The translations under genes and the position numbers were made by a program. From the NCBI GenBank assembly GCA_020050835.1, contig JAGVKB010000132.1, forward strand, positions 1 to 47,316: a stretch of 47,316 nucleotides of DNA. The letters are read 5' to 3'. Shown one piece after another: positions 1,588 to 36,105 of the stretch. How positions within the stretch are numbered: the stretch's first letter is position 1; each line of letters begins with the position of its first letter. The notes under the pieces were generated by a model, which saw only the letters and a list, made by a program, of their open reading frames with translations, searched no databases and was not told the origin of the DNA. The stretch is from Candidatus Obscuribacterales bacterium. GTDB lineage: Bacteria; Cyanobacteriota; Vampirovibrionia; Obscuribacterales; Obscuribacteraceae.

Positions 1588-1616
1588 TTGAGATGATTTT
1601 TAATATACTGTATGAG
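1588..1616 (+). promoter_or_regulatory. Candidate promoter of a small RNA
   Basis: TTGAGA (1588-1593) is separated by exactly 17 bases from TATGAG (1611-1616), a reasonable sigma-70 promoter. It is followed about 90 bases later by a strong intrinsic-terminator hairpin with no coding frame between. It overlaps a weak copy of the recurring TACTR-N7-TAGTR element (1606-1622). Confidence 0.45.
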
Positions 1617-1622
1617 ATAGTG

Positions 1623-9180: not shown

Positions 9181-9225
9181 AAAAGCAAGGAAGCCAGGTC
9201 AGAAACCGGCTTCCTCTGCTTTTTC
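9181..9225 (+). terminator. Intrinsic terminator
   Basis: GCAAGGAAGCC pairs with GGCTTCCTCTGC (core GGAAGCC 9189-9195 with GGCTTCC 9208-9214), followed by CTTTTTC. It closes the HD/small exported protein unit. Confidence 0.85.
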
Positions 9226-9233
9226 GAAATTTA

Positions 9234-9250
9234 TACTACCCCTTTTAGTG
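9234..9250 (+). promoter_or_regulatory. Recurring TACTA-N7-TAGTR element, copy A
   Basis: TACTA, seven bases, then TAGTG. A TTTAGT hexamer begins ten bases after the first T. It starts nine bases after the terminator T-run and lies 427 bases before the next gene start (9677). Confidence 0.5.
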
Positions 9251-9620
9251 CAAGCAAACACTTTCATTGCTAACATTCGTAAACTGCCCGGCACCCACAA
9301 ACCAGCTCTGCCAGCTGCTTCACGACATTAAGAAGCAGTTATTTGCTTGGGTATTGATATGACCCCCCTGCCAGCCTGTAGGTTCAAGGTACTTTCCATT
9401 CATTCGACCAAACCAGCAAACGTAGACGTAAAAGCCCGCCCTCTGTCCCGTACGACCTTAACTCGCACTGCACCTTTATGCAGCCGCTGGGCAACGAATG
9501 ATAAGGAAGAGCAATTTCAGGTACCTCGGTGAACCTTGGTGCCATCTCACGGCAAACCTCTTTCGTGCATCAAACCGCACGACTCGTAGCGCGCCGCAAC
9601 ACTACAGGTGGTATCACGAA

Positions 9621-9638
9621 GCGGGAGGCGCCTCCCGC
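9621..9638. repeat. Perfect 18-bp palindrome in a gene leader
   Basis: GCGGGAGGCGCCTCCCGC reads identically on both strands. It ends 38 bases before the start of the gene at 9677 and just before its AGGAAGGA ribosome site. It could form a hairpin in the leader or be an operator. Confidence 0.6.
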
Positions 9639-9676
9639 TCGCTCAAGCACAATCCAATCAGGAAGGACCAATTGCA

Positions 9677-10456
9677 ATGTCCACGAAATTCAGCAAATCC
9701 GCTGTGAATCCGCAGGCTCCGCTGCCGTTGCTCGAAATGCCTCTCTTGAAGCAGGTCGAGGAGATGGGCCGCGACAGGATGAAGCAGTCCGACGAAGAGG
9801 ACGCCGAGACCAACCCGCTCGATTATTACGGCGAGTGGTACATGGAAGACCTCAGCGAAGCTGGCTACACCGAGACGCCGTCGGAAGCTCGCCTGTCAAC
9901 CCGCGCCTTCGGACAGCTCCTGAGGATCAAGCCCGACGAGCTCGCCAAGGTCAAGAGCTGCCTGCGTTATCGCCGCACCGCCTATCATGACTTCGCCTTG
10001 GCGGACACGGCAATCGACGCGCTCAGCCGCAATCAGGATGTGGCCGCGGCTCTTGCGCTCCTGAAACCGAGCAACGCGACCAAGATCAAGGGCCCGTTCC
10101 AGCCCCAGAAGCAAGAGTTCGAACTGCTCGAGGCTCTCAAGACCACTGCCGGCGCCAACGATGGCCAGGCAAACACGGATCTGCGGGTCGCGAAGTATCT
10201 CCTGTCGAAAGTCTGGCTGCCCAAGCCCGCCGCCAACCAACTGTCCGCAGCAGATCGGGCTGCCGTCCAGCTGGCCGGCTTGATCCGCATCAAGCAGTCC
10301 GACCTCTCCAAGGTTGCCGCCAAGCTTATCGAAGCCGGCGCCAACACTCAGACGGCGCTGCAGGTGTCGATCGCTCGCGTCGTGCTCTCCTGCCTGAGCG
10401 TGACGCCGCGGCTCGTCGCCGGTTTGCAGCGCGCCCAACCTCGGTCCACGGAGTAA
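9677..10456 (+). CDS. Unrecognised soluble protein, 259 aa
   Basis: The ATG at 9677 follows AGGAAGGACC. The first ~75 residues are acidic and low in complexity (EEDAETNPLDYYGEWYMEDL). The rest appears to be helical and contains two loosely similar segments: one around 'FGQLLRIKPDELAKVKSCL' and a later one around 'LAGLIRIKQSDLSKVAAKLI'. Each is followed by 'NQDVAAAL'- or 'NTQTALQV'-like helices. This suggests an internal duplication of a helical unit. No catalytic motif, signal peptide or membrane segment. It is transcribed in line with the 93-residue gene at 10633. Confidence 0.75.
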   Translation: MSTKFSKSAVNPQAPLPLLEMPLLKQVEEMGRDRMKQSDEEDAETNPLDYYGEWYMEDLSEAGYTETPSEARLSTRAFGQLLRIKPDELAKVKSCLRYRRTAYHDFALADTAIDALSRNQDVAAALALLKPSNATKIKGPFQPQKQEFELLEALKTTAGANDGQANTDLRVAKYLLSKVWLPKPAANQLSAADRAAVQLAGLIRIKQSDLSKVAAKLIEAGANTQTALQVSIARVVLSCLSVTPRLVAGLQRAQPRSTE

Positions 10457-10632
10457 TCCAGCCACATCAGCGGAAGACACTCGCAGTCTCGGAATTGCGC
10501 TTCCTAGGCGAACTTCTCCTTCCCACCGCCTGCCGCGGTGACCACATCCAGGTAGCTCGGCTGGATGAGCACTCCGAGCCGTTCTAGAGAAAAACTCAAT
10601 CGCTTGCAATGCGAGCAAAAGGAAGGTAAACC

Positions 10633-10914
10633 ATGGACTACCAATCTCCCAAGATCCCCAGCCCGGAAGATCTCGACCAGGGTCCGGACAGCGAGCTGAT
10701 TGCAGCGCGCGACAAGGTCCTCCAACAGCTGATCCCCGAACTGAGCAAACGCAAGCGCGGGGACAAGGGCGACAACCCGATCTTCACGAACCACGTCGCC
10801 CCGAAGGTCAAGCAGGCCGTGATCGAGGCGCTCGAAGGACAGAAGTGGACCGTCGAGGTCAAGAAGATCTACGGCGGCAACCTCCACTGGTACATCCGCC
10901 CCCGCTCGGCCTGA
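10633..10914 (+). CDS. Unrecognised small basic-ended protein, 93 aa
   Basis: ATG at 10633 is preceded by AAAAGGAAGG. The N-terminal 25 residues are Pro/Asp/Glu-rich. The centre is charged (ELSKRKRGDKGDNP). The C-terminal 35 residues have a helix-then-strand look, with the aromatic-basic end 'EVKKIYGGNLHWYIRPR', which could bind nucleic acid (inference only). No family recognised. It shares the C/G-ending codon pattern of the genes before it and is closed by a strong terminator. Confidence 0.75.
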   Translation: MDYQSPKIPSPEDLDQGPDSELIAARDKVLQQLIPELSKRKRGDKGDNPIFTNHVAPKVKQAVIEALEGQKWTVEVKKIYGGNLHWYIRPRSA

Positions 10915-10940
10915 CGGCCGCCCGGTGAATAACTGAAATC

Positions 10941-10979
10941 GGGAGAGCCGAGCCCAGTGCAAGGCTCTCCCCCTTTTTT
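10941..10979 (+). terminator. Intrinsic terminator
   Basis: GGGAGAGCC (10941-10949) pairs with GGCTCTCCC (10963-10971), followed by CCTTTTTT. It ends the 10633 transcript. Confidence 0.88.
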
Positions 10980-10988
10980 GAGAGTTCT

Positions 10989-11005
10989 TACTACCTTTTA
11001 TACTA
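10989..11005 (+). promoter_or_regulatory. Recurring TACTA-N7 element, copy B, with a TATACT hexamer
   Basis: TACTA, seven bases, then TACTA. TATACT (10999-11004) sits in the same register as the -10-like hexamer of the other copies. It starts ten bases after the terminator T-run and 115 bases before the 926-residue protein gene. Confidence 0.5.
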
Positions 11006-11103
11006 GCTTTTCAAAGCTTCAAATAGGCGCTTGCGAGCCATGCTGCGTCAAAATTCGCGGATTTTGGCATATATACAACAAACTACTCGGACTTTTGTTG
11101 CAG

Positions 11104-13884
11104 ATGACCGACCGGCCGACACCTCCACCCGAAAAAGCAAGCTCCGGAGCCGATCCCAGCGAAGCGGCTATGGAACAGGTGCGCAGGCAGATCTTGCTGC
11201 ATGAACGACACGACAAGAAACAAACTGTGCTTGCTCGCACCGCTACCTTCGTGATGCGCACCGGCAGCGACGGTTCGCTCGACGAATTGAAAACACTGTA
11301 CAAGCAAGCCGAAGAAGCCCAAAAGTCGAACGATAAAGAGCGGCTCAATGCGCTCACCAAACAGCTCCAGGAGAAAGTTCGAGCTGATAGAGAGGCGCTG
11401 CAATGGCAAGACGAAACCAGTCACTACGCCACCGGCTTCGCAAAGACAATGGGGCTCTTCTTGAAGGGAAGAGGCGGGGCAACTCTCACAGCATTGTCGT
11501 TCGGGTTGGACCAAATCAACCCTAACGAGACACCTTCACTGCAAGCAGCCGACTTCACGTTGGGGATGGGAAAAGGTCTGCTCACACGGCGAGTGATGGG
11601 TGCAGCGAGCAATCTAAAGCTGGGCATCGCCGGAGAAGCCAGTGTTCTTGGGCTTTCATCCCGTATAATCGATCAAGCGCTTACCCGGGGCAACTATTAC
11701 GACAACAATAGCGGCCGGTTTAGCTTTCTCACGGCTTTCAACAAGATCGATTCCGTTGCCTTGGACAGAGCTGCTTTGGTTAGCGATGTAACAACCTTCG
11801 CCGGAGCGAAGTTGATGTTCGGACTGGCAGGACGAGCCGGTCACGGCTCATTGTTGAGCAACCCGTTCTGGGCTACAACCCTTACAGGCGGCACTTTCGG
11901 TATCTCCAGCGGTGCCGCCTCCGAAATCATCAGGCAACGCCAAACTGGAGAGTCATTCGACTTCAACAAGATTGTCAGACATGGCTTGATGCAAGGGCTC
12001 GTCGATAGCGTCGCCGCTGCTCCGGGCGGTCTGCAAGCCAATTCATATTTCAGAAGCAGCCTTTCATCGCGACTTTCACACAGCTTCAATTGGTTGCGCG
12101 GCGAAGCTAATTCAACAAAAGCAACAGCGCCTTCGTCAGCGGAAATTGTTGCTCGCGAAACACTCAAGACGACTCCGACCCAAAAGCTGGGCGGTTCACA
12201 CCCGCAAGAAGTTAAGAAGCAAGAACCGGCAGCGCCAGAGCAGATCGCCAATGAAGATGTGTCAACGGCAGCACCGCCGGAGAAAACCGGAAAATCGAGA
12301 AAGAATAGACGCAAATCGAATCAGCAAGCCTCCGAGCCAGCAGACTTAGACAAGCCGGTAACCGAGCCAAAGGAGACCAAGGTCAATCGCCCGAAGGCCG
12401 AGGATTTCACCGCTGGCGGTACCAAGGATAAGAACGCTGCTGTAAAAGAAACAGACAAACCAGTTCAGCCGGTAAAGGTGGAAGTCGCTCCCGAAGCGCC
12501 GGTGGATCGAACCATCTTGAAGAAAGGCGGAGCCGATTCAGGTGTCGTAAGCCGGCTCAGCGAGCAGCAAGCCAGACAGATACTCAAATTACAAGACCCA
12601 GTCAGACAGTACTTCTTTGAAGCAGTTCTGAAAGACCCGGCGGCGCCTGCCGAAGCTCTCGAGCAGGCAATTTTCCGATCTGAAAGTTTCCTGCAAAAGT
12701 CCTTGCCAGAACAAGTGCAGTTCGCCGAAAAGGCAGTAAGACAGCTGCATAAAAGACTGGGGATGGACTCGGAAAAACCATTGAGCTCTACTGAGTTCCT
12801 GCAATTGGACCGAGCGCAAGACTTGCTTAGATCGCGGCTGGGAATCGCGCTCGACGAGATAGCCAAACCCGGACAGCCACCGGAAGCTACCAGAGAGTTG
12901 AAAGAGCTGGTTCGCAAGAAACTCAGCGATATGGCCGAGGTGCTGGACATCGGCAACGTTGGGACTCTGATGGGTGGCAACCACCAGGAGCTGGTCGTGC
13001 TCAAGGAAATGCGCGATGCAATTCGACGAACCGGGCAGACAGACTCCGTTAAGGTAGTGCGACTCCTGGGAGATTTGGCGGCCGATCATTGCGGCTTCGA
13101 CTTTGCGTTGTTAAATGTGGATACCGGTAAACTGCTGCCGATTGACGCCTCACAGCGAAACAAATTCGATCACGGTCTGCCGTTGATTCGCAGCCGGACG
13201 GTGATAACCGTACCCGACCCCACCAGCGCCGACATCGCTGAACTTTGGACGCATGTGAAAAGGCAGCAAGGCATTCCGGATAGCACTCCCCAGCCTTCAG
13301 CCGCTGAGATGTTGAGACTGCGTTGCGATTATGTTCTCAAACAACTACAAGACTCACCGCTGCGAGTTACAGACGTCAGGCTTCTCTACGATCAGTTCGT
13401 CGACCGCCAACTGTTCAGCCGCAAAGTAACTCCAGCCGATCGCGCCGAAGCAGCCAGAGATGGCGGCGGCAAACGCAAGCTGTTTCAGCTTGCCGACGGC
13501 GAGTTAATCCATCTCAATGCTGCCACCGACAGAACAATGCCGGCCGGACTGAGCTTCGCGCAGGGCTTGGCCTTAAGAGAATTGAGAGAGCAGCGAGCCG
13601 CCAATGGGCTTGATGTCAGCCGCATGGAGGCGAGCACTGTCACTCGACTAGAAAATTACCGCCGCATGATCGAGCTTCAGACCGAAAGCATTGCCAGATT
13701 TGTTCACGATTTAAGACTGCTTGGCGAAAAAACTAAATCGACTGGAAATCAGTCCGCCCGAACGTTGCTCGAGGAGTACGCTAACCATACCGAAAGAGGG
13801 GCGCTCCGATACTTCACAAACAAGAACGTGGCCGACAGTCCAATTGCTATCGCCGACAGGATTACCAATGCGCTCAACCGATAG
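11104..13884 (+). CDS. Large unrecognised protein with disordered centre, 926 aa
   Basis: The frame opens at 10957, but the upstream part lies in a terminator and promoter-like element, so I start at ATG 11104; its SD is poor. Residues ~1-110 are charged and helical. Residues ~120-300 are glycine- and alanine-rich with hydrophobic stretches (GRAGHGSLLSNPFWATTLTG), which might insert in a membrane. Residues ~310-480 are Lys/Glu/Pro-rich and disordered. Residues ~480-926 are long helices with leucine periodicity, holding a small region 'HCGFDFALLNVDTGKLLPID'. I recognise no enzyme motif. The architecture (glycine-rich hydrophobic block, disordered linker, helical C-terminus) is the type I associate with large proteins of Obscuribacterales; that is impression, not a match. 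Confidence 0.75.
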   Translation: MTDRPTPPPEKASSGADPSEAAMEQVRRQILLHERHDKKQTVLARTATFVMRTGSDGSLDELKTLYKQAEEAQKSNDKERLNALTKQLQEKVRADREALQWQDETSHYATGFAKTMGLFLKGRGGATLTALSFGLDQINPNETPSLQAADFTLGMGKGLLTRRVMGAASNLKLGIAGEASVLGLSSRIIDQALTRGNYYDNNSGRFSFLTAFNKIDSVALDRAALVSDVTTFAGAKLMFGLAGRAGHGSLLSNPFWATTLTGGTFGISSGAASEIIRQRQTGESFDFNKIVRHGLMQGLVDSVAAAPGGLQANSYFRSSLSSRLSHSFNWLRGEANSTKATAPSSAEIVARETLKTTPTQKLGGSHPQEVKKQEPAAPEQIANEDVSTAAPPEKTGKSRKNRRKSNQQASEPADLDKPVTEPKETKVNRPKAEDFTAGGTKDKNAAVKETDKPVQPVKVEVAPEAPVDRTILKKGGADSGVVSRLSEQQARQILKLQDPVRQYFFEAVLKDPAAPAEALEQAIFRSESFLQKSLPEQVQFAEKAVRQLHKRLGMDSEKPLSSTEFLQLDRAQDLLRSRLGIALDEIAKPGQPPEATRELKELVRKKLSDMAEVLDIGNVGTLMGGNHQELVVLKEMRDAIRRTGQTDSVKVVRLLGDLAADHCGFDFALLNVDTGKLLPIDASQRNKFDHGLPLIRSRTVITVPDPTSADIAELWTHVKRQQGIPDSTPQPSAAEMLRLRCDYVLKQLQDSPLRVTDVRLLYDQFVDRQLFSRKVTPADRAEAARDGGGKRKLFQLADGELIHLNAATDRTMPAGLSFAQGLALRELREQRAANGLDVSRMEASTVTRLENYRRMIELQTESIARFVHDLRLLGEKTKSTGNQSARTLLEEYANHTERGALRYFTNKNVADSPIAIADRITNALNR

Positions 13885-14292
13885 ATCGCCAACAGCATGC
13901 TACTAACGCTAGCTATGCTAAATGTGAGACGGCGCTAAACCGTGCGGAAAACACGTAGGCGCCTAGCTTAGACGAATTTCGAAAGCCACCAGCAAGCCAC
14001 CCCATAATCCAGCGAAGTCCTTTCCTGGACAGACTTTTCCAAGATTTGATCTAATTCTTGCTGTCAGAATTATGGCTGTAAGCTCAATTTGCATTTAAAA
14101 CTTCATTACTGTAACTATCTCTGTACTTGTTTGTTTTCACTCAATTTCGTGCGGAGAAAATCCCCCAACCAGCTAGTTACGTGCTGTTTCGAATTTAGAG
14201 CTATGCCCCTTATCGCATCTGCCGCTGCGGCGGTTTTGCACAACTCGAAAACAGAGCTACGCAATCCCAACTTTTCCAGAAAGGACAAAGCC
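13885..14292. other. Gap with an imperfect hairpin, no gene seen
   Basis: Just after the long gene, AGCATGCTA and TAGCTATGCT (about 13896-13921) can pair with one bulged base, but no T-run follows. The remainder contains no frame with a ribosome site until the mini-protein at 14293. Confidence 0.4.
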
Positions 14293-14409
14293 ATGAACAT
14301 GCTCAAGGAATTGAACGCTCGTTACGAAGCCGCGGTCAACGCCGGCAATCTCGAACTCGCGGCCGACCTGGCAAGCGAAATCATGTCCATCGAAGACGCC
14401 AGCAACTGA
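14293..14409 (+). CDS. 38-residue helical mini-protein (paralogue 1)
   Basis: ATG at 14293 follows AAAGGAC. The product begins with MNMLKELNARYEAAVNAG and ends in the motif 'LASEIMSIED'. It should form two amphipathic helices joined at a Gly-Asn turn. It is clearly related to the next gene: both carry L-x-x-L-x-A-x-YE-x-A, then G-[ND]-[LI]-E-x-A-x-x-LASEIM-x-[IL]ED. Codons strongly favour C/G endings. No known family comes to mind. Its small size and tandem duplication suggest a real, maintained protein rather than a leader. Confidence 0.7.
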   Translation: MNMLKELNARYEAAVNAGNLELAADLASEIMSIEDASN

Positions 14410-14560
14410 GCTCGAACCGGACCCCGGACCGACCCCACTCGAAAGCGCACCGAAAACAATCCGGAATGCGCTCCAACCGTCAAACTCCGCCGGCGTGGTC
14501 TTGTCAGATCACTGCAAACGGTGCCAGCGGAGAATCTCGAAACCAGAACGGAGGTACGCT

Positions 14561-14725
14561 ATGAAGCCCGATCTGAAGAAGCTGCAGGCCGACTACGAGC
14601 AGGCGCTTCGCAATGGCGACATCGAGCGCGCCGGTGAGCTGGCCAGCGAGATCATGGACCTCGAGGACCAGGCGCCGGAACAGCAGAAGAAGCGCACGAA
14701 GCACGCCGACGCGGATAAGGAGTAA
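14561..14725 (+). CDS. 54-residue helical mini-protein (paralogue 2)
   Basis: ATG at 14561 is preceded by the strong SD ACGGAGGT. The first ~40 residues align with the 38-residue protein just upstream (shared YE-x-A, G-[ND]-x-E, LASEIM-x-[IL]ED). A 14-residue basic/acidic tail (QQKKRTKHADADKE) is added, which the first copy lacks. The two genes are 151 bases apart, on the same strand, and share a strong terminator after this one. Function unknown; helix-hairpin proteins of this size often bind a larger partner (inference). Confidence 0.75.
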   Translation: MKPDLKKLQADYEQALRNGDIERAGELASEIMDLEDQAPEQQKKRTKHADADKE

Positions 14726-14768
14726 GCAATGTGCCAAAACTGGCATAATGCTCGCTCCTCTCCAGCGC

Positions 14769-14812
14769 AAAAGGGCAAATGATGCGGACCACCCGCATTA
14801 ATGCCCTTTTTT
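14769..14812 (+). terminator. Intrinsic terminator after the mini-protein pair
   Basis: AAGGGCAAATGATGCGG can pair with CCGCATTAATGCCCTT around ACCAC, and six T residues follow. It closes the 14293-14725 unit. Confidence 0.85.
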
Positions 14813-14824
14813 CTTATCGATCTT

Positions 14825-14841
14825 TACTACTCATTTTAGTA
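14825..14841 (+). promoter_or_regulatory. Recurring TACTA-N7-TAGTA element, copy C (perfect arms)
   Basis: TACTA (14825-14829) and TAGTA (14837-14841) are exact inverted repeats seven bases apart, with TTTAGT in the usual register. It starts 13 bases after the terminator T-run and lies 424 bases before the cyanophycinase-like gene. Confidence 0.55.
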
Positions 14842-15264
14842 TTTTCGCGCAATCTATAGCGTAGCTTTGCACCCTTTGAATCAATCTTGTCCCTTTTCCA
14901 ACTGGACCATTTTTCTTCGAAACCACCTGAATCTGCCTGTTTCAGCAAGTAGTTCTAACCACTAGTTGAACGACTGTCGTTTCAAGCTGGCGCAAAGCGG
15001 TCACCTGTTATAGAAATTTCCTTTCTCGCACGGCATACCAGTGTTGCACCAGCTTTGCGCTAGTCGATAGGTTAGGTGTGTTGTTAGTTATCTCCTTCCC
15101 CATCGGAATTTTCGTAGAGCAAGCACTCCAATCCTCCATCCGCAGCTTGCCCCCAGCGATTTGGCGCGAAATTTTTCGTGGCCGGTTTGGTATGTCCACT
15201 GAAGAAGAAGACACACACCGGCTCTTTCTTTCAATCATTTCGGCAATAAAGCCGGAGACCCACA

Positions 15265-16110
15265 ATGAAAACAACCATTTGCACACGTTTGGTCCTGCTC
15301 TCCGTTCTGGGCTTGTGGGCAATCTTTCCTACCGAGCGCCAGATATCCGCAGCTGAAGAGGAACCCAAAATGAATCAATTCAAGGGCTCGCTGTTCTTGA
15401 TCGGCGGCGCAGCTGACAGTACGCTGGCCGACTTCGTCAAACTAGCCGGCACTGACAAGGCCAACATCGCAATCATTACTCACGCCAGCGCCGAGCCGGA
15501 CAAAGCCGGAGACGAAATGGCCAATGCCTTTGCCTCGCTGGGCGTGAAGCATACGACAGTGATCCAGCCCGGCCACAAAGGTGGTCTTCCCAAGGACACC
15601 AACGCCGTATTCATCTGCGGCGGCGACCAGAACCGCTTGACTCGTCTTCTGGACGATCCTCTGCCAAAGCAGCTCAAGACTTTCCTCAATGACGGGGGGC
15701 TAATCGGCGGTACGAGCGCGGGGGCAGCCGCTGCGGTCAAGACGATGATCGCCGGCGGCATGAGCGACAAGATTGTTCGACCCAACTCTCTGCGACTGGC
15801 AGACGGGCTCGGACTCCTGGCTGGAATGATTGTTGACACGCACGTCGGTGAGCGCTCTCGTGACTGTCGGTCGATGGTGGCGGTCACGATGCTCGATGAT
15901 GTTCTGGCAGTCGGACTGGACGAAGACACAGCGATTTACATTTCAAACGGTAAGGCCGTCGTTTACGGCAAAGGACACGCCCGCCTCTTCCGGACAAGCA
16001 CCGGCAAGAAGGCGGCGATGAAGTTAAGCCAGGATGGCACCACCGGCAGCGTCTCGGACATATTAGTGTCCTATCTGACCGCCGGCGAAGAGTTCAAATT
16101 GCCGCAATAA
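15265..16110 (+). CDS. Exported cyanophycinase-like peptidase (S51 family)
   Basis: A 281-residue product beginning with a signal peptide (residues 1-30, hydrophobic core LVLLSVLGLWAIF, cut probably after 'QISAA'). The S51 fold is indicated by 'LFLIGGAAD' near the mature N-terminus, 'FICGGDQNRL' (~116-125), and the nucleophile elbow 'GGTSAGAAA' with Ser151. The 'DTHVGERSRD' segment (191-200) matches the conserved Asp/His/Arg patch. Cyanophycinases cut cyanophycin (Arg-Asp polymer) into dipeptides. An exported form suggests scavenging of extracellular or periplasmic polymer rather than turnover of an internal store; this is inference. No cyanophycin synthetase is nearby. Other S51 peptidases remain possible. 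Confidence 0.85.
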   Translation: MKTTICTRLVLLSVLGLWAIFPTERQISAAEEEPKMNQFKGSLFLIGGAADSTLADFVKLAGTDKANIAIITHASAEPDKAGDEMANAFASLGVKHTTVIQPGHKGGLPKDTNAVFICGGDQNRLTRLLDDPLPKQLKTFLNDGGLIGGTSAGAAAAVKTMIAGGMSDKIVRPNSLRLADGLGLLAGMIVDTHVGERSRDCRSMVAVTMLDDVLAVGLDEDTAIYISNGKAVVYGKGHARLFRTSTGKKAAMKLSQDGTTGSVSDILVSYLTAGEEFKLPQ

Positions 16111-16228
16111 TAATTCAAGCGGCAACAGACGACACAGAAGTCAGCTTCCAGCAGCAAGGAATGAGTGGGTAGAAATTTCTAAATCAACCGCCCGAAACTG
16201 GAAAAATGTGATTTTCTTGCTTGGATTT

Positions 16229-16414
16229 GCGGGGACCTTTGAGCGGAGCTCGAGGGTCTCCGCGCAAGGGAGTTGTGAAGCTAGTTTCTCTGCGCATCCC
16301 GGCTTGTTGTTCAGCCAAGGTCAGAGACTAATTCGCTAGAGAGAGACGCCATGCAGCTTGGCGTCTCTCTCTGTGCCCCTCCTTCCGGCCGACACTATAT
16401 TTGGTGCCGGCCGA
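16229..16414. terminator. Three consecutive hairpins after the cyanophycinase-like gene
   Basis: Hairpin 1: GCGGGGACC/GGTCTCCGC (about 16229-16263). Hairpin 2: a perfect 14-bp stem, 16338-16351 with 16359-16372, around TGCAGCT. Hairpin 3: CGGCCG arms with CAC/GTG inside (about 16385-16414). None has a clear T-tract. They could act together to end transcription, or could be part of a structured RNA that starts after the peptidase gene. Confidence 0.5.
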
Positions 16415-17201
16415 AAACAGCTATGCGGCTCACTCGACTAAATCTTCGGTTGGCGGTAAGAGAACTGTTGATCCGAATTATTCAAAAACCGGTATTTACT
16501 ACTGTTTTTAGTACTAGCCTTTGAAGATCGAGTCCTGGCGGTCCTTCCTTTCTCGTATTCTGTGTTTTCTTCGCTTTCACAGCAGATCGACGAAAAACAT
16601 CTCTTCGTGTTCCCCAATCTGTCAATGCGATAACGCCGACAGCCTGTTGGCAGGCTATTTCACACCATTGCCGCAAGATTGCCAGCAAGTGGTTGCCGCT
16701 CAGTGTCGTCCGTCCATTTCGCACAATGGGGAGAATTACACTGGTTGCGCTAGGAGTGCGCAATAGTACACGTTTACCAGTTGTGGGGACTGCTACGAAC
16801 CCAACACGCAAGCATTCCGATCTCTCATCCTAATCTGCGGTAATGCCATTTGCCGCAATTCATGCAGGTTCCAGCAGATCCTCTTGCTGAAGAATCCCGA
16901 CAGCGAGCGCCTCACTTTTTCGTTTCAACCTTCTTGTTCGTTCTTACTAATAAGACCTACTGTCAATTCAGCTTATCTCTTTTCCCGATTCGACAAGAAA
17001 CATCAAATCGACCCAGGACAACGCTCCTAATCCGAATTTCAAGTAGCTGGCGATGCCGGGAAAAGGGATCAGCTAGACGCAGAAATATACGAAGGTTCGG
17101 AAGGCTAAGGCTGCCCGAACATAAGCGACTTTGCTGCCGTACTTGATCCAGCCGAACTCAGTTCGAGCCTGACATCGGCACAGCGGTGGATTCGCAATGA
17201 C
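16415..17201. other. Long gap, no gene seen
   Basis: Between the hairpin cluster and the sigma-factor leader I find no frame with a ribosome site or coding character. It holds one copy of the recurring element (16497-16513). If that is a promoter, it would give the sigma gene a leader of about 780 bases. Confidence 0.45.
16497..16513 (+). promoter_or_regulatory. Recurring TACTA-N7-TAGTA element, copy D (perfect arms)
   Basis: TACTA (16497-16501) and TAGTA (16509-16513) are exact inverted repeats seven bases apart, and TTTAGT is in the usual register. It is the last recognisable signal before the sigma-factor gene and lies 83 bases after the third hairpin. Confidence 0.55.
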
Positions 17202-17268
17202 TAAGACGACCGGAGAACAACCGGTCTTAAGCGCTGCTACCGACTAACGACGGTGGCAGCGCATTTTT
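17202..17268 (+). promoter_or_regulatory. Attenuator-like hairpins just before the sigma-factor start
   Basis: A first hairpin (17202-17229; TAAGA/TCTTA with CCGG/CCGG) is followed at once by a 12-bp stem, GCGCTGCTACCG (17231-17242) with CGGTGGCAGCGC (17251-17262), and an ATTTTTA run. This intrinsic-terminator shape ends 24 bases before the ATG of the sigma gene and 13 before its SD. It is well placed for conditional termination, or it may end a separate upstream RNA. Confidence 0.6.
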
Positions 17269-17291
17269 ACACCACAATTGAGGAAATACCA

Positions 17292-18275
17292 ATGCCTTTC
17301 AAATCCAAAAGCCAAGCCGTAATCACCGACGCTTACGAGTCCCTCGAAGAACCGGATGACGAGACACTTTTGTTAAATGAGGAGACAAACTCCAATGAGG
17401 TCGAGCCAACAGCATCGAACTTCGGGCCGGTCGACGACAGCGTCAGAATTTATCTCCGTCAAGCAACCAAGTATCCCTTGCTGACAGCCGAACAGGAGAC
17501 AGAACTTGCTAAGGCGATCGCATCATCGAGAGCCGGCGCACTGCTACGTCAGGCTGCCGTCAAAAAACTGGCCGAATGTAATCTCCGCTTGGTAGCGAGC
17601 ATTGCCAGAAAGCATGATGGACGAGGGCTACCGCTACTCGATCTCATTCAAGAAGGAAACATCGGGCTGCTGCGTGCTGTCGAGAAATTCGACTATACGA
17701 AGGGCTATCGTTTCAGCACCTACGCCACCTGGTGGATTCGCCAAGCGGTACAAAGAGCGCTAGCCGACAAGGCGCGCGCGATCCGGGTGCCGGTTCATAT
17801 GGTCGAGAACATGAGGAAATCCAAACGCCTATCGAGACAGTTAACGGAGCAATTAGGCCGGACTCCGACCGGTGAAGAACTCGCAGCGGCGATGGGAGTC
17901 AATCAGAAACAACTGCAACGAATTCTGGACGCTCTTCGCCCAGAGCCGCTATCGCTCGATGCGCCAATTGCTTCAGACAGCGACTCAACGCTGCGTGAAG
18001 TAATCAGCTGCGACGGGGGCGTTAACTCAGACAGCGAAATCGACTTCACGTTAATCTCCCATGCCGTGGAAAACGTGCTCTCCAATTTCAGCGAGCGAAA
18101 TCAAAAGGCGATTTCTATGAGGCTTGGACTCAGAGGTTTCGACCGATGCACGTTGGATGAAACAGGCAAATCCGTCGGACTTACTCGTGAGCGAGTCAGA
18201 CAGATTGTTGAAACATTCCGCAAGTTAGCCAGAAAGGACTCCGCCCTTAAGGCGCACTGGCAAGCTTGGAAGTAG
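17292..18275 (+). CDS. Sigma-70 family factor (group 2, RpoD-like)
   Basis: A 327-residue factor; ATG at 17292 follows AGGAAA. Region 1.2 is at ~48-72 ([20 protein letters not shown]). Region 2 is at ~96-158, with '[21 protein letters not shown]' for core binding and -10 reading and '[19 protein letters not shown]' for melting. Region 3 is at ~165-240. Region 4 is at ~255-315, with the HTH '[19 protein letters not shown]' that reads the -35. The long acidic region 1.1 of a housekeeping RpoD is absent, replaced by ~45 acidic residues. Length and architecture fit group-2 (non-essential, stress or nutrient) factors common in cyanobacteria. It is monocistronic, with an attenuator-like hairpin in its leader and hairpins after the stop. 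It could recognise the recurring element in this window (hypothesis). Confidence 0.93.
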
Positions 18276-20475: not shown

Positions 20476-20555
20476 CCCCTCAATGACCGACACCTTTCTG
20501 GTGAAAGATGAATTTCTGGTCAAATGCTCACGGCTTTTCGTTTCCTTCACTCTGC

Positions 20556-20572
20556 TACCGTATACAGTATTA
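20556..20572 (+). promoter_or_regulatory. Weak copy of the recurring element
   Basis: TACCG, seven bases (TATACAG), then TATTA. It matches the pattern in spacing but not fully in arms. It sits between a terminator hairpin and the C39-like gene (start 20738). Confidence 0.3.
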
Positions 20573-21290: not shown

Positions 21291-21307
21291 TACTGTATAC
21301 TATAGGA
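21291..21307. promoter_or_regulatory. Weak copy of the recurring element
   Basis: TACTG, seven bases (TATACTA), then TAGGA on the plus strand. On the minus strand it lies 16 bases beyond the hairpin that ends the WD40-like gene, so it again follows a terminator. Confidence 0.35.
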
Positions 21308-21323
21308 TTTCGAACCAAAAGCA

Positions 21324-26672: not shown

Positions 26673-28295
26673 TCAGGCCTGGCGCTTCAAGAGCGCATTA
26701 ATCGCCTGTTCGGTCCCGAGGTGGTGGATGTGGACGAGCGCCCAGGCCAGAGCCTGAACGAACTCTCCGACGCCGGCCAGCCGGACGAACCGGTTGTCCT
26801 GCACCGCTCCGCCGACATTGGCGAGAATGGTGGCGAGCGTCCCGACCTCGAGATCTTCAGGCTTTTGCGGCACGGACTGGACTGAGCGCACCCAGGAGAG
26901 AACCCCCTCGTGGTGCGTTTCCAGCTTCGGAGCATCGGCATCGTTCAACGCGATGCTCTGACCGAACTCGTCCTCGCCGCCGAGGTTGAGCAGCCAGCAA
27001 GCAGCAACGAAGGTCGGTGCGAACAGCACCTTGCCGTTGGCCGCCAGCCCGCGCTCGACTGCGACGAGCAGACGCTCGGACACCTTGCTGGTGGCCCGGG
27101 CGCCCACGCGTTCGACCGTATCGCCCAATGCGCTGTCGGCGAACCGACTGCGAATCTCGGCTGCGTAGTAGCCGACCGTCGTCGAATCCATCGGCATGAC
27201 GGAGGCGTACTCGCCGTGGATGCGTTCCAGCAGCGCCGAGATGCTGGCGTTCTGCGTGGCCTCGTGGATGTACTTGAAGCCCATCCGCTGTCCGAGGATG
27301 GCGGGCACCTGGTGCGCGCCGTTCAGACAGAAGAATTTGAGCTCCCAGAACGGCGTGCAGTCCTCCACGAGCCGCGCACCAGCAGTCTCCCACGGCGGCA
27401 GCGCGAACTTGCCGCGTTCGACGACGAGCTGGTGAAAGTACTCGGTGCCGACGACGACGCAGCTCTCGAAACCGAGATAGTCCGCCGCATCCTTGCGGAA
27501 GTCGGCGGTCGTCTCGGGCGTGATCCGGTCGACGGTGGAGACCGGGAAGTCGACGTTGGTTTCGATCCAGGTTGCCAGCTCGGTCATGTCCAGCTCCTGC
27601 ACGAACTGCACCAAGCCGCTCTTGAGCGTTTTGGAGTTCTGCGGGATGTTGTCCAGCGACAGCAGGGTGAGCGGGCCGCCGTTGGCCTTTCGCCGCTGCT
27701 CGAGCCCGTTGACCATGTACCAGTAGAGCGTGCGCGGGCTCTGACCGGCAGGCAGGTTGAGGTCGTGGAACACGTCGGGGTGCGACAGGTCGAGGCGGTT
27801 GTCCCGTCCGACCACGTAGTAGCCCTTGTTGGTGACGGTGAAGGTCACCAGCCGGATGCGACTGTCGGCGACGGTCGCAACGATCTGGTTGGGATCTTCC
27901 TTGCCGAACAGAGTGCCGACAATCGGTGCCATCACCGACGGCCTGCGCTTGTTTCCTTCCCGCTCGATCAGAACGTACAGGTTATCCTGCTTGCGCAGAC
28001 CTGAGATCGTTCCGTCCGAGCGGATGGAGGCGGCAATGATGCCCCAGCTGTTGTCCTGGTTCAGGATCTTGTCGGTGTACGACGCGATGTGGGCCAAGGC
28101 GAAATTGCCAGCACCGATGTGCAGATGCCCGGGCGTGATTGACCGGGGGTCGTAATTGGGTCCGTTGACGTGCGCCGGCAGCGAGCCGAGCGTCGCCAGG
28201 GACAGCTTGGGGCGCTGCACGATCTGCGGCTGCCCTTGATCCTGAGCACCGTCCGTGACGAACTGGTGCATGTCATTTTGTGCCGATTTGTCCAT
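26673..28295 (-). CDS. Long-chain polyol (mannitol-type) dehydrogenase, paralogue 1
   Basis: A 540-residue member of the polyol-specific long-chain dehydrogenase family, which oxidises mannitol and similar polyols with NAD(P). Motifs: the nucleotide-binding 'HLHIGAGNFALAHIA' (~60-74), 'TFTVTNKGYYV', 'PLTLLSLDNIPQNS', 'STVDRITPET', and the catalytic Lys-x4-Asn-x2-His patch in 'ELKFFCLNGAHQVP'. It has a ~45-residue polar N-terminal extension relative to the second paralogue. ATG at 28295 follows GGAGG. It is divergent from the second copy at 28915 and followed on the same strand by a HAD phosphatase. Codons are much more C/G-ending than in its paralogue. Substrate (mannitol, arabinitol, fructuronate or other) cannot be fixed from sequence. 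Confidence 0.88.
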   Translation of the reverse strand: MDKSAQNDMHQFVTDGAQDQGQPQIVQRPKLSLATLGSLPAHVNGPNYDPRSITPGHLHIGAGNFALAHIASYTDKILNQDNSWGIIAASIRSDGTISGLRKQDNLYVLIEREGNKRRPSVMAPIVGTLFGKEDPNQIVATVADSRIRLVTFTVTNKGYYVVGRDNRLDLSHPDVFHDLNLPAGQSPRTLYWYMVNGLEQRRKANGGPLTLLSLDNIPQNSKTLKSGLVQFVQELDMTELATWIETNVDFPVSTVDRITPETTADFRKDAADYLGFESCVVVGTEYFHQLVVERGKFALPPWETAGARLVEDCTPFWELKFFCLNGAHQVPAILGQRMGFKYIHEATQNASISALLERIHGEYASVMPMDSTTVGYYAAEIRSRFADSALGDTVERVGARATSKVSERLLVAVERGLAANGKVLFAPTFVAACWLLNLGGEDEFGQSIALNDADAPKLETHHEGVLSWVRSVQSVPQKPEDLEVGTLATILANVGGAVQDNRFVRLAGVGEFVQALAWALVHIHHLGTEQAINALLKRQA

Positions 28296-28624: not shown

Positions 28625-28855
28625 TTAAGTGAACAAAAATGGCACCACAAAGTCCCAAAAATCAGATTTAATCCAATGAGAACCACTTAACAGTTTTGCG
28701 AGCTTCTGCAAGGTAAAGATTCCCGCAGTAATCTTGGGTCGTGGACAGACATCTGGCGGTACAATCACCAGGCGATGATCGGCTCTAGCAATCAGATGTT
28801 CGATCACATAGCGGCGACGCATCAAAAACGATTCGGCTAACCGTGAACATCCCAC
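28625..28855 (-). pseudogene. Possible remnant of an IS66-type transposase
   Basis: A 76-residue frame carries 'RRRYVIEHLIARADHRLVIV' followed by a proline stretch 'PPDVCPRPKITAGIF' and 'LQKLAKLL'. This order (basic R-Y-V-I segment, hydrophobic strand, P-P-x-x-x-P-R-P linker, G-I start of the next helix) is like the zinc-finger/linker region of IS66 TnpC. The rest of TnpC and any terminal repeats are missing, and no ribosome site precedes it. If real, it is a short decayed fragment between the two dehydrogenase genes. Chance resemblance cannot be excluded. Confidence 0.3.
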
Positions 28856-28914
28856 TGGATAGGCGGCAGAGCCAGCAATGCAGCAACTCTTACATCCAAG
28901 GGGTGACCAACGAC

Positions 28915-30402
28915 ATGACCGCGCTAACTATCTCAACCGCCTCGCTGAAGAATCCGCCCAAGAACGTCAAGTGTCCTAGTTACGATCGGTCCACTCTGAC
29001 CGAGGGAATCTTGCACATTGGGGTGGGCGCTTTTCATCGATCGCATCAGGCTCTCTATCTCGATGATCTGATCGAATCGCACGGCGTGAAAGATTGGGCA
29101 ATTTACGGCGTCGGCATCATGCCGCAAGACGAGGCGATGAACAACGCACTCAATTCGCAAAACTGCCTCTATACGCTGATCGAACGAAGCGGTGACAACA
29201 GCTCGGCGCGCATTATCGGCTCGCTCACTCATTATGTGTTCGGACATAGAGACCCGGAAGCCGTCTTTGCAAAGATGGCTGATCCGCAGATTAAGATCGT
29301 TACCTTGACGGCAACCGAAGGAGGCTATTGCTTCCATCAGGGAACCGGCGAGCTGGACCTGACTAACAGTGGCATACAAAACGATTTGAAGAATCCGCTC
29401 AAACCGCAAACCATTTTCGGCTATCTTGCCGAAGGTTTGAATCGCAGGCGCAAAGCCGGCATCGTTCCCTTTACAGCGCTGTCCTGCGATAACCTTCAGG
29501 GTAATGGCCATGTTCTTCGCAAAACGCTGCTGGCCTTTTGCGCGCAGAAAGACAAAGAGCTCGCTGCCTGGATCGAAAAGAATGTCAGCTTTCCGAATTG
29601 CATGGTAGACAGAATCACCCCCGCGACTACCGATGCCGAAAGAGAGTTCGTGCGCTCCACTTACAATCTGGATGATGCCTTTCCAGTCGTGTCGGAACCG
29701 TTTCGGCAATGGGTGATCGAAGACGACTTCTCCAATGGTCGCCCACCGCTGGAGAAAGTCGGCGTGCAATTCACGAGCGACGTTGCCCCATACGAAAAGA
29801 TGAAAATTCGCTTGCTCAACGCAAGCCATTCGGCAATGGGCTATCTCGGTTACTTAATCGGCTACCGCTACATCTACGAAATAGCTCAGGCAGCAGAATT
29901 CACCGACTATCTTCGAGATTTGATGGACGTAGAAGTTACACCGTTGGTGGGAGACGTTCCCGGTGTCAATCTTTGCGACTATAAGCGAACTTTGATGGAG
30001 CGGTTCTCCAACGCAGTAATCAAGGATCAAGCTTTACGCATCTGCATGGACGGCTCTGCCAAGATGCCCAAGTTTGTGCTCCCTTCGATTGTCGAACAGT
30101 TGGAACGGAAAGGACCGATCCGGCGGCTTACGCTCTGTGTCGCCAGTTGGATGCGCTTCCTAACCGGCAAGGACGAGCAAGGTGCAGATATACCGCTGGT
30201 CGATCCGATGGCAGACAGACTTCGAGCCGTCGCCGAAAACAGTGGACCGAATCCAAGACCACTGCTTGAGCTTACCGATATCTTCGGCGATCTCGGCCAG
30301 TCTCAAAGGTTCGCTCAAGAACTGGAGCTGCTCTTGAAATCGCTTTATGAAAAGGGCGCTCGTGAGACGCTAGAATTCTGCAAAAAGACTGCCGAAAGGT
30401 AA
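28915..30402 (+). CDS. Mannitol 2-dehydrogenase-like enzyme, paralogue 2
   Basis: A 495-residue enzyme, the normal length for mannitol 2-dehydrogenase/fructuronate reductase. ATG at 28915 follows AAGGGGTGACC; an earlier ATG at 28843 is weaker. Motifs: 'LHIGVGAFHRSHQALYLDDL' (nucleotide-binding and family start), 'TLTATEGGYC', 'FTALSCDNLQGNG', 'NCMVDRITPATT', and 'EKMKIRLLNASHSAMGYLG' with the catalytic Lys-x4-Asn-x2-His. This copy matches the classical mannitol 2-dehydrogenase consensus better than the divergent neighbour. Its codon choice is ordinary (15 of 26 sampled codons end in C/G). The probable reaction is mannitol + NAD to fructose; fructuronate reduction is the main alternative. Confidence 0.92.
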   Translation: MTALTISTASLKNPPKNVKCPSYDRSTLTEGILHIGVGAFHRSHQALYLDDLIESHGVKDWAIYGVGIMPQDEAMNNALNSQNCLYTLIERSGDNSSARIIGSLTHYVFGHRDPEAVFAKMADPQIKIVTLTATEGGYCFHQGTGELDLTNSGIQNDLKNPLKPQTIFGYLAEGLNRRRKAGIVPFTALSCDNLQGNGHVLRKTLLAFCAQKDKELAAWIEKNVSFPNCMVDRITPATTDAEREFVRSTYNLDDAFPVVSEPFRQWVIEDDFSNGRPPLEKVGVQFTSDVAPYEKMKIRLLNASHSAMGYLGYLIGYRYIYEIAQAAEFTDYLRDLMDVEVTPLVGDVPGVNLCDYKRTLMERFSNAVIKDQALRICMDGSAKMPKFVLPSIVEQLERKGPIRRLTLCVASWMRFLTGKDEQGADIPLVDPMADRLRAVAENSGPNPRPLLELTDIFGDLGQSQRFAQELELLLKSLYEKGARETLEFCKKTAER

Positions 30403-35053: not shown

Positions 35054-35998
35054 ATGCGCATGAAGCTTTTCATGATCTGCGCGCTGATTCTCAGCAACGT
35101 CGCTCTTTGCTTCTCTCAACCCGCCGAATCTTCAGTCGGCGGTCCGGGAGCCACTCAGGTAAAGGCCCAGAATTCGGGCTCCGCCTCGACTCTGTATCCG
35201 AACAGCGGTGCAGTATATTACTCCTATCGCACCGTTGGCGGTGCCAAAGTCAACGTCGTGCAGGCAGACCTGAGCTCGGGTCAATGGCAGTTGAAACCGG
35301 TGGTCAACCCCGGACTGTCGACTACTTCGTCGGCCGCACACAAAAGCAATGCCAGCGCAGCAGTCAACGGCGGCTACTTCGACCTGACGACCGGCGCCAG
35401 CTTGAGCACAGTCGTGATCGACGGCAAGCCGGTCAAAGCGCCGCGTGAAATGTCGCTGGTCAAAAAGAAAGATCACCTGGCGGCCTACCGGCAGGCGATC
35501 GCCAATCGAAGCGAGCTTCGCGTGCTGATTGGCCCGGACGGCAAGCAATCTGCTCAGATCGCTTTCCACAATGACGCCGTTGCCAGCGGATACCAGCTCT
35601 TGCATTCGCTGCAAGGTGGTCCGCAACTGGTACCGAGCCTGACCACAAAAGAGGAGGCGTTCATCAGGACGAACTCGAACGGCTATCGCATCGACGTCAT
35701 CCGCTCGACCGACCGCGCCGCTCGCACCGCTTTCGGTATCAGAGCAGACGGCCAGGTAGTGCTGGTGGCGGTGGAAGGACCGGAGAACGGTGGCGGCTCT
35801 CCCGGCGTTTCGCTGGCTGGTCTGGCTCAGATCATGAGAGACCTCGACTGCGCCTCCGCCGTCAACCTCGATGGCGGCCACTCGACAGCAATGTATGTCA
35901 AACTCGGCTCTCCAAACGGTGGACGGACGGTCTGCGGCGGACGCAATCAAGCCGCCGTCAAAACCGTGCTCGTGCTCGTCCCAGCCGGAAAGCAGTAA
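35054..35998 (+). CDS. Exported phosphodiester glycosidase-family protein
   Basis: A 314-residue protein with a signal peptide (residues 1-~22, LFMICALILSNVALCF). The family, named for the NAGPA 'uncovering enzyme', is shown by 'SAAVNGGYFDLTTGASL' (~100-116), 'RTAFGIRADGQVVLVAVEG' (~224-242) and the signature 'AVNLDGGHSTAMYV' (~275-288), with Asp and Gly/His near the active site. Bacterial members cleave phosphodiester-linked sugars in cell-envelope polymers. ATG at 35054 follows AAGGAGGGG. Single-gene unit with terminators on both sides. The reading 'DGGHST' replaces the more usual D-G-G-G-S-T. Confidence 0.88.
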   Translation: MRMKLFMICALILSNVALCFSQPAESSVGGPGATQVKAQNSGSASTLYPNSGAVYYSYRTVGGAKVNVVQADLSSGQWQLKPVVNPGLSTTSSAAHKSNASAAVNGGYFDLTTGASLSTVVIDGKPVKAPREMSLVKKKDHLAAYRQAIANRSELRVLIGPDGKQSAQIAFHNDAVASGYQLLHSLQGGPQLVPSLTTKEEAFIRTNSNGYRIDVIRSTDRAARTAFGIRADGQVVLVAVEGPENGGGSPGVSLAGLAQIMRDLDCASAVNLDGGHSTAMYVKLGSPNGGRTVCGGRNQAAVKTVLVLVPAGKQ

Positions 35999-36031: not shown

Positions 36032-36075
36032 AAAAAGCCCCAGTACTTTCGCCACGAAAGTCGCCGGGGCTTTTT
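36032..36075. terminator. Bidirectional terminator
   Basis: AAAAAGCCCC (36032-36041) pairs with GGGGCTTTTT (36066-36075), and ACTTTCG/CGAAAGT pairs inside around CCA. T-runs are present in both orientations, so it can end the glycosidase mRNA and the convergent LRR-gene mRNA. Confidence 0.9.
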
Positions 36076-36088
36076 CTTCGCAATTTTC

Positions 36089-36105
36089 TACTATTTTGTA
36101 TAATT
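36089..36105 (+). promoter_or_regulatory. Recurring TACTA-N7 element, copy E, with perfect TATAAT
   Basis: TACTA, seven bases, then TAATT. TATAAT (36099-36104) is in the same register as the hexamers of the other copies. It starts 14 bases after the terminator T-run. The next gene is on the opposite strand, so if it is a promoter it would read antisense into the LRR gene. Confidence 0.45.

Follow-up and report, generated by a model that had tools for sequence, protein, structure and literature searches.

What is a short palindrome that recurs just behind transcription terminators doing in the genome of a Candidatus Obscuribacterales bacterium? The question is raised by a 47,316-nucleotide stretch of that genome (GenBank assembly GCA_020050835.1, contig JAGVKB010000132.1; hereafter the window), in which a preliminary description recorded five copies, A to E, of an element of the form TACTA-N7-TAGTA with a −10-like hexamer starting ten bases in, and proposed either a promoter class, with a nearby group-2 sigma factor as candidate reader, or a dimeric operator. 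We followed the element through the 7.0-Mb genome to which the window belongs (G000) and through its relatives, including G006, an Obscuribacterales metagenome-assembled genome (MAG) of 10 contigs. It is a symmetric dyad coupled to T-tracts and gene ends, confined to one chromosomal domain and restricted to one family, and we tentatively read it as a roadblock site that would assist termination. All genomes are MAGs, and genes and terminators were called with simple scripts of our own; no paper describing the element was found in the literature searched.

Sequence of the dyad and its place at gene ends

The consensus in G006 is TACTAT-N5-ATAGTA, a 17-bp two-fold symmetric dyad in an A+T-rich setting. 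Conservation is limited to these 17 bp and the flanks are otherwise unrelated between copies, apart from four palindromes (L185:4907, L188:7453, L200:3592 and L204:3554) with longer flanking sequence in common, which suggests local duplication of whole gene ends. With G006 sites between tandem genes aligned in the direction of the upstream gene, the arms match equally (195 vs 190 of 228), and the best-conserved bases, ACTA/TAGT, differ from the diagnostic bases of a −10 box. The hexamer of the preliminary description is real but not an independent feature: it consists of the dyad's right arm and one or two further bases, and the symmetry accounts for its fixed position. Arm mismatches are mostly uncompensated (compensatory in three of 28 two-mismatch sites, with no covariation between positions 5 and 11); it is therefore the sequence and not the pairing that is conserved, pointing to a dimer site rather than a hairpin. 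The dyad is probably recognized by a putative dimeric DNA-binding protein, and its two-fold symmetry and equal arms support, in form, the operator half of the original proposal.

Comparison with Markov models, with dinucleotide shuffles and with a control palindrome matched in dinucleotides rules out chance and base composition as an explanation. Exact TACTACNNNNTTTAGTA occurs three times in G000 against 0.01-0.04 expected under Markov models of order 1-5, and a genome-wide search for exact TACTA-N7-TAGTA returned nine distinct sites, where some 0.3-0.65 would be expected. The matched palindrome replaced a reversed-pattern control, which was unfair and misleading because it lacks the rare TA steps.

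The enrichment behind terminators that had also been anticipated is evident in both genomes. Strong terminators at gene ends were predicted in 1.21 Mb of G000 independently of the motif; of these 55, 12 have the dyad (≤2 mismatches) behind them at 13-21 nt after the T-tract start, compared to 0.5 in shuffles, and the top G000 hits of a palindromic position weight matrix (PWM) are essentially all intergenic and nearly all beyond stop codons. Within the copy-bearing domain of G006 described below, a site with ≤1 mismatch is present in 36/62 convergent, 24/391 tandem and 0/75 divergent intergenic regions, a distribution that does not fit a promoter class. Allowing ≤2 mismatches, 49 of the 62 convergent regions have a site, and 63/95 convergent and 32/143 tandem G006 terminators are followed by one. 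The T-tract lies on the side of the incoming gene for 59 of 60 G006 sites, the median distance between the start of the tract and the site being 15 nt. For tandem pairs this offset is 12-18 nt in 30 of 32 cases, and the start of the next gene is a median of 248 bp (24-744) from the site. Terminators paired with a site have somewhat longer T-tracts. At loci from five genera (G003, G006, G046, G048/G059 and G051) every one of the 28 sites is intergenic, and with one or two exceptions they come after the stop codon of a gene.

A domain around the origin

Copies begin abruptly at ~280 kb on G006 contig C14 (JAIEOQ010000008.1), where GC also climbs from ~0.46 to 0.50-0.55 and the coding fraction falls, and continue to the end of that contig; they are sparse on C5, which contains dnaA and a sign change in GC skew, and then occupy the first ~180 kb of C13. 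On the contig order C14-C5-C13, which is assumed from skew and domain continuity and not from a joined assembly, the domain measures ~0.8 Mb and extends from about −605 to +210 kb around the origin. A site was present in none of 14 G006 convergent regions sampled outside the domain (p = 3e-8). For G000 the figures are 17/31 convergent regions on copy-bearing contigs vs 2/66 elsewhere; some of these contigs were chosen for having hits, and p = 5e-6 remains after removal of one site per chosen contig. This difference between convergent regions inside and outside rules out a greater amount of intergenic DNA in the domain as the cause. The G000 contigs with copies, at a GC content of 0.55-0.60, correspond mostly by orthology to the G006 domain. 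A third genus (G046) has 19 sites, which lie on four of ~40 contigs, one of them with dnaA; clustering is weaker in G043 and G056, and confinement is not equally strict everywhere. For the relation of the domain to the origin the basis is a single well-assembled genome, supplemented by the dnaA contigs of two others.

The chromosome is compartmented, with an origin-spanning domain. In this domain GC content is higher than in the rest, less of the sequence is coding and intrinsic terminators are several times denser per kb, and its edge in G006 is sharp (compartments were compared in G000 on contigs C7, C48, C79, C114 and C102 vs C2, C4, C12, C13, C17 and C149). No canonical parS (TGTTTCACGTGAAACA-like) with ≤2 mismatches was found in the G006 DNA examined, which includes the origin domain; we reject identity of the element with parS, and a ParB motif scan of the proteins predicted from this DNA came back empty.

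The motif is enriched over the matched control in most of 50 genomes in the window organism's family, with motif:control counts such as 47:1, 31:0, 29:3, 28:3 and 26:2. Some family genomes have no enrichment (0:4, 0:2, 4:5), nor does genus g13, and G005, G008, G042 and G057 are palindrome-poor relatives. Outside the family, whether in the sister family or elsewhere in the class, the motif is not enriched over the matched control. Individual sites turn over: for 154 orthologue pairs, a site is present in both genomes in two cases and in only one in 22.

Copies in the window

All five copies listed in the preliminary description are present with the spacing it gave (Table 1), two of them with perfect inverted arms as it had noted. 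Copies A, B, C and E stand 9-13 nt beyond the end of a T-tract, and copy D, also as described, follows hairpins instead. The window contains 32 matches with ≤2 mismatches vs 9.2 expected, a number equalled in none of 100 shuffles, and no Rfam family matched anywhere in it. Three weaker copies had been reported at 1606, 20556 and 21291; each exists with two mismatches, the one near 20556 being better registered at 20553 and a candidate only, and none is established as a functional member.

Table 1. Palindrome copies and the terminators preceding them in the window
Feature	Position	Strand	Details
Possible weaker copy TACTGTATGAGATAGTG	1606-1622		Two mismatches; PWM 18.6 (good); membership uncertain
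Terminator of gene ending 9128	9189-9225	+	Hairpin ~9189-9214, T-tract from 9220; fold −11.5 kcal/mol
Palindrome copy A TACTACCCCTTTTAGTG	9234-9250		Starts 14 nt after T-tract start
Terminator of gene ending 10914	10941-10979	+	Hairpin 10941-10971, T-tract 10974-10979; −21.9 kcal/mol
Palindrome copy B TACTACCTTTTATACTA	10989-11005		Starts 15 nt after T-tract start
Terminator of gene ending 14725	14770-14812	+	T-tract from 14807; −22.3 kcal/mol
Palindrome copy C TACTACTCATTTTAGTA	14825-14841		Perfect 5-bp arms; starts 18 nt after T-tract start
Palindrome copy D TACTACTGTTTTTAGTA	16497-16513		Perfect 5-bp arms; no adjacent T-tract; hairpins ~16334-16375 and 16386-16413 upstream
Possible weak copy, convergent region	21291-21314		Two mismatches; PWM 14.4 (modest, at 21298); membership uncertain
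Terminator of gene ending 35998	36032-36075	+	T-tract from 36071; −23.9 kcal/mol
Palindrome copy E TACTATTTTGTATAATT	36089-36105		Starts 18 nt after T-tract start

Copy E lies between convergent genes with stops at 35998 (+) and 36281 (−), and the doubt that it had raised about a plain promoter, since it would read antisense into the minus-strand gene, was a correct clue. No evidence connects the element with the group-2 sigma factor encoded at 17292, and copy D upstream of that gene is the only one of the five without a T-tract. Directly 5' of the sigma factor gene, two strong hairpins at 17208-17271, the second followed by ATTTTT, are a candidate leader terminator or attenuator (the fold of 17195-17270 is −35 kcal/mol). 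Elsewhere in the window, two mannitol-dehydrogenase-family genes adjoin divergently at 26673-28295 (−) and 28843-30402 (+).

A proposed roadblock behind the terminator and its rivals

We favour, tentatively, a reading in which the palindrome is a two-way roadblock site that would form a composite terminator with the hairpin and T-tract, its binding, roadblocking and improvement of termination all being inferred. The unit would run from stop codon through hairpin and T-tract to a palindrome 11-19 nt after the T-tract start. A polymerase finishing at the intrinsic terminator would run into a palindrome-bound dimer, which would hold it over the T-tract while the hairpin releases it. Between convergent genes a single palindrome would serve both terminators, and the roadblock would suppress read-through and antisense transcription, in a system active only in the GC-richer ~0.8-Mb domain around the origin. 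A terminating polymerase, with the RNA end at about T7-8, covers roughly 18-20 bp further downstream; a site ~15 nt after the T-tract start therefore falls within its footprint, and the polymerase must meet any protein bound there. This overlap, together with an order and spacing similar to those of yeast RNA polymerase I (Pol I) termination, is the reason for favouring a bidirectional roadblock.

In the yeast case Pol I is halted by the Reb1 roadblock 15 bp before the Reb1 site, after which a hairpin and T-rich tract bring about quick release of the RNA (PMC12366685). Eukaryotic Pol I terminators (Reb1/Nsi1 or TTF-I) share with the element the order hairpin, T-tract, site and a similar spacing, and the sequence layout here does place a hairpin and T-tract directly upstream of the putative protein site at a fixed distance. 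However, they involve another polymerase and another kingdom, whereas the element here is symmetric and would serve two convergent genes, and the likeness is an analogy only. In its upstream half the unit has the ordinary hairpin and T-tract of bacterial intrinsic terminators, including bidirectional ones between convergent genes, but in these no conserved sequence dyad follows the T-tract at a set distance.

Several observations weigh against a roadblock. A general aid to termination should not be confined, yet convergent regions outside the domain are almost devoid of sites (0/14 in G006 and 2/66 in G000); terminators, too, are rarer there. Domain confinement is unexplained by a roadblock and is the best argument for the chromosome organiser considered below. 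Many terminators inside the domain lack a site, copy D lacks a T-tract, and terminators with a site look strong and not in need of help. Moreover, sites are rarely kept at orthologous gene ends, and no single site can therefore be indispensable. A Pfam scan of small basic proteins encoded in the G006 domain gave DNA-binding hits only to an HU protein and a phage-type integrase, most of the proteins scanned having no Pfam match. The HU protein, encoded in the domain (G006 C14:790562, L217:11665-12072; G000 L061:14456), is 86% identical between genera; it has a long lysine/alanine/proline-rich, histone-H1-like tail. A 95-amino-acid protein with a ParB-type box EIEDGRHRVIAAKLAG (G006 C14:769651, L216:10751-11035; G000 L062:13896) has no Pfam match, is 65% identical between genera and adjoins a palindrome in G000 (L062:13713), and a CsoR-like protein recognised by eye is located near the domain edge. 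None of these four proteins is convincing as the binder. Taken whole, the picture of a dimeric protein at a fixed distance behind terminators, blocking polymerase from both sides and only in the origin-proximal domain, is possible but doubtful.

The strongest rival, which we consider unlikely, is that a protein of chromosome organisation or segregation (like MatP/matS, SlmA or ParB/parS) binds the palindrome, and that convergent gene ends behind terminators are just the spots least disturbed by transcription. The origin-spanning confinement with its sharp left edge in G006, the like clustering in G000 and G046, the turnover of individual sites and the lack of canonical parS in the G006 DNA examined all agree with an organiser. 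A shielded complex, however, should sit further on than 11-19 nt from the T-tract start, which is inside the polymerase footprint, and sites are sparse right at the origin (one in 80 kb of C5). In Escherichia coli the MatP/matS and SlmA sites are short palindromes in tens of copies over part of the chromosome (PMC3116907) and, like the element, are confined to or excluded from one domain. Nevertheless, matS is a mark of Ter, SlmA sites are found mostly within coding sequence, and neither is reported there as coupled to terminators (PMC3116907). Compared by consensus, with no search for MatP or SlmA proteins, matS GTGACRNYGTCAC and SlmA GTGAGTACTCAC also differ from TACTAT-N5-ATAGTA. One protein could have both roadblock and organiser roles.

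It is improbable that the palindrome is a short repeat, mobile or like a REP (repetitive extragenic palindromic) element, that invades intergenic 3' regions and survives there because it is nearly harmless. Its 3'-end bias, its turnover and the few longer duplicated flanks in G006 are as such a repeat would have them, but the conservation of just 17 bp amid unrelated flanks, the fixed spacing to the T-tract and the domain confinement are not. REPs, 14-40 nt long, form stem-loops and are defined by their pairing (PMC12306157); they and bacterial interspersed mosaic elements (BIMEs) resemble the element as short palindromic intergenic repeats, yet conserved pairing is what the element lacks. Spaced palindromic motif pairs at gene ends, left unexplained, are also on record, among them CCTAC(N)19TAGGT in Desulfatibacillum and GCTTAT(N)5AAGCG in Acidovorax ebreus, of which 44 copies are convergent, 59 co-oriented and 4 divergent (PMC5217627). 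They are likewise dispersed and intergenic, but differ in sequence and lineage, and the section on them reports neither fixed T-tract spacing nor domain confinement (PMC5217627). In the literature consulted, none of these systems, whether MatP/SlmA sites, intergenic spaced dyads, REPs or ordinary terminators, has a fixed spacing behind the T-tract.

A promoter class, in which outward −10-like hexamers give sense or antisense transcripts just after terminators, is very improbable. Each arm does hold a TATAGT-like hexamer, and polymerase can stay on DNA after intrinsic termination, but we reject this reading on orientation, symmetry and distance: divergent regions of the G006 domain have no site, the arms are equal, the distance to the next gene is broad, the invariant ACTA/TAGT core is unlike −10 conservation, and some copies elsewhere in G000 lie behind terminators in the opposite orientation, facing the terminator. 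Least probable of all is a signal in read-through RNA, a weak hairpin or processing site, for although the palindrome is self-complementary and always downstream of genes, its stem is weak and A/U-rich, lies beyond the RNA release point and, with compensatory change scarce, is rejected as an RNA hairpin.

Intrinsic terminators are thought to require just a hairpin and a U-tract. If the roadblock reading is true, the element would represent a factor-assisted class of intrinsic terminator and the mark of a transcription-defined chromosome domain, and one binding protein should account for ~100 sites. A protein-site-like dyad behind terminators across most of a bacterial family would parallel eukaryotic roadblock termination. 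The element marks an origin-spanning compartment that is distinct in GC content, gene density and style of termination, and so would tie termination to chromosome domains.

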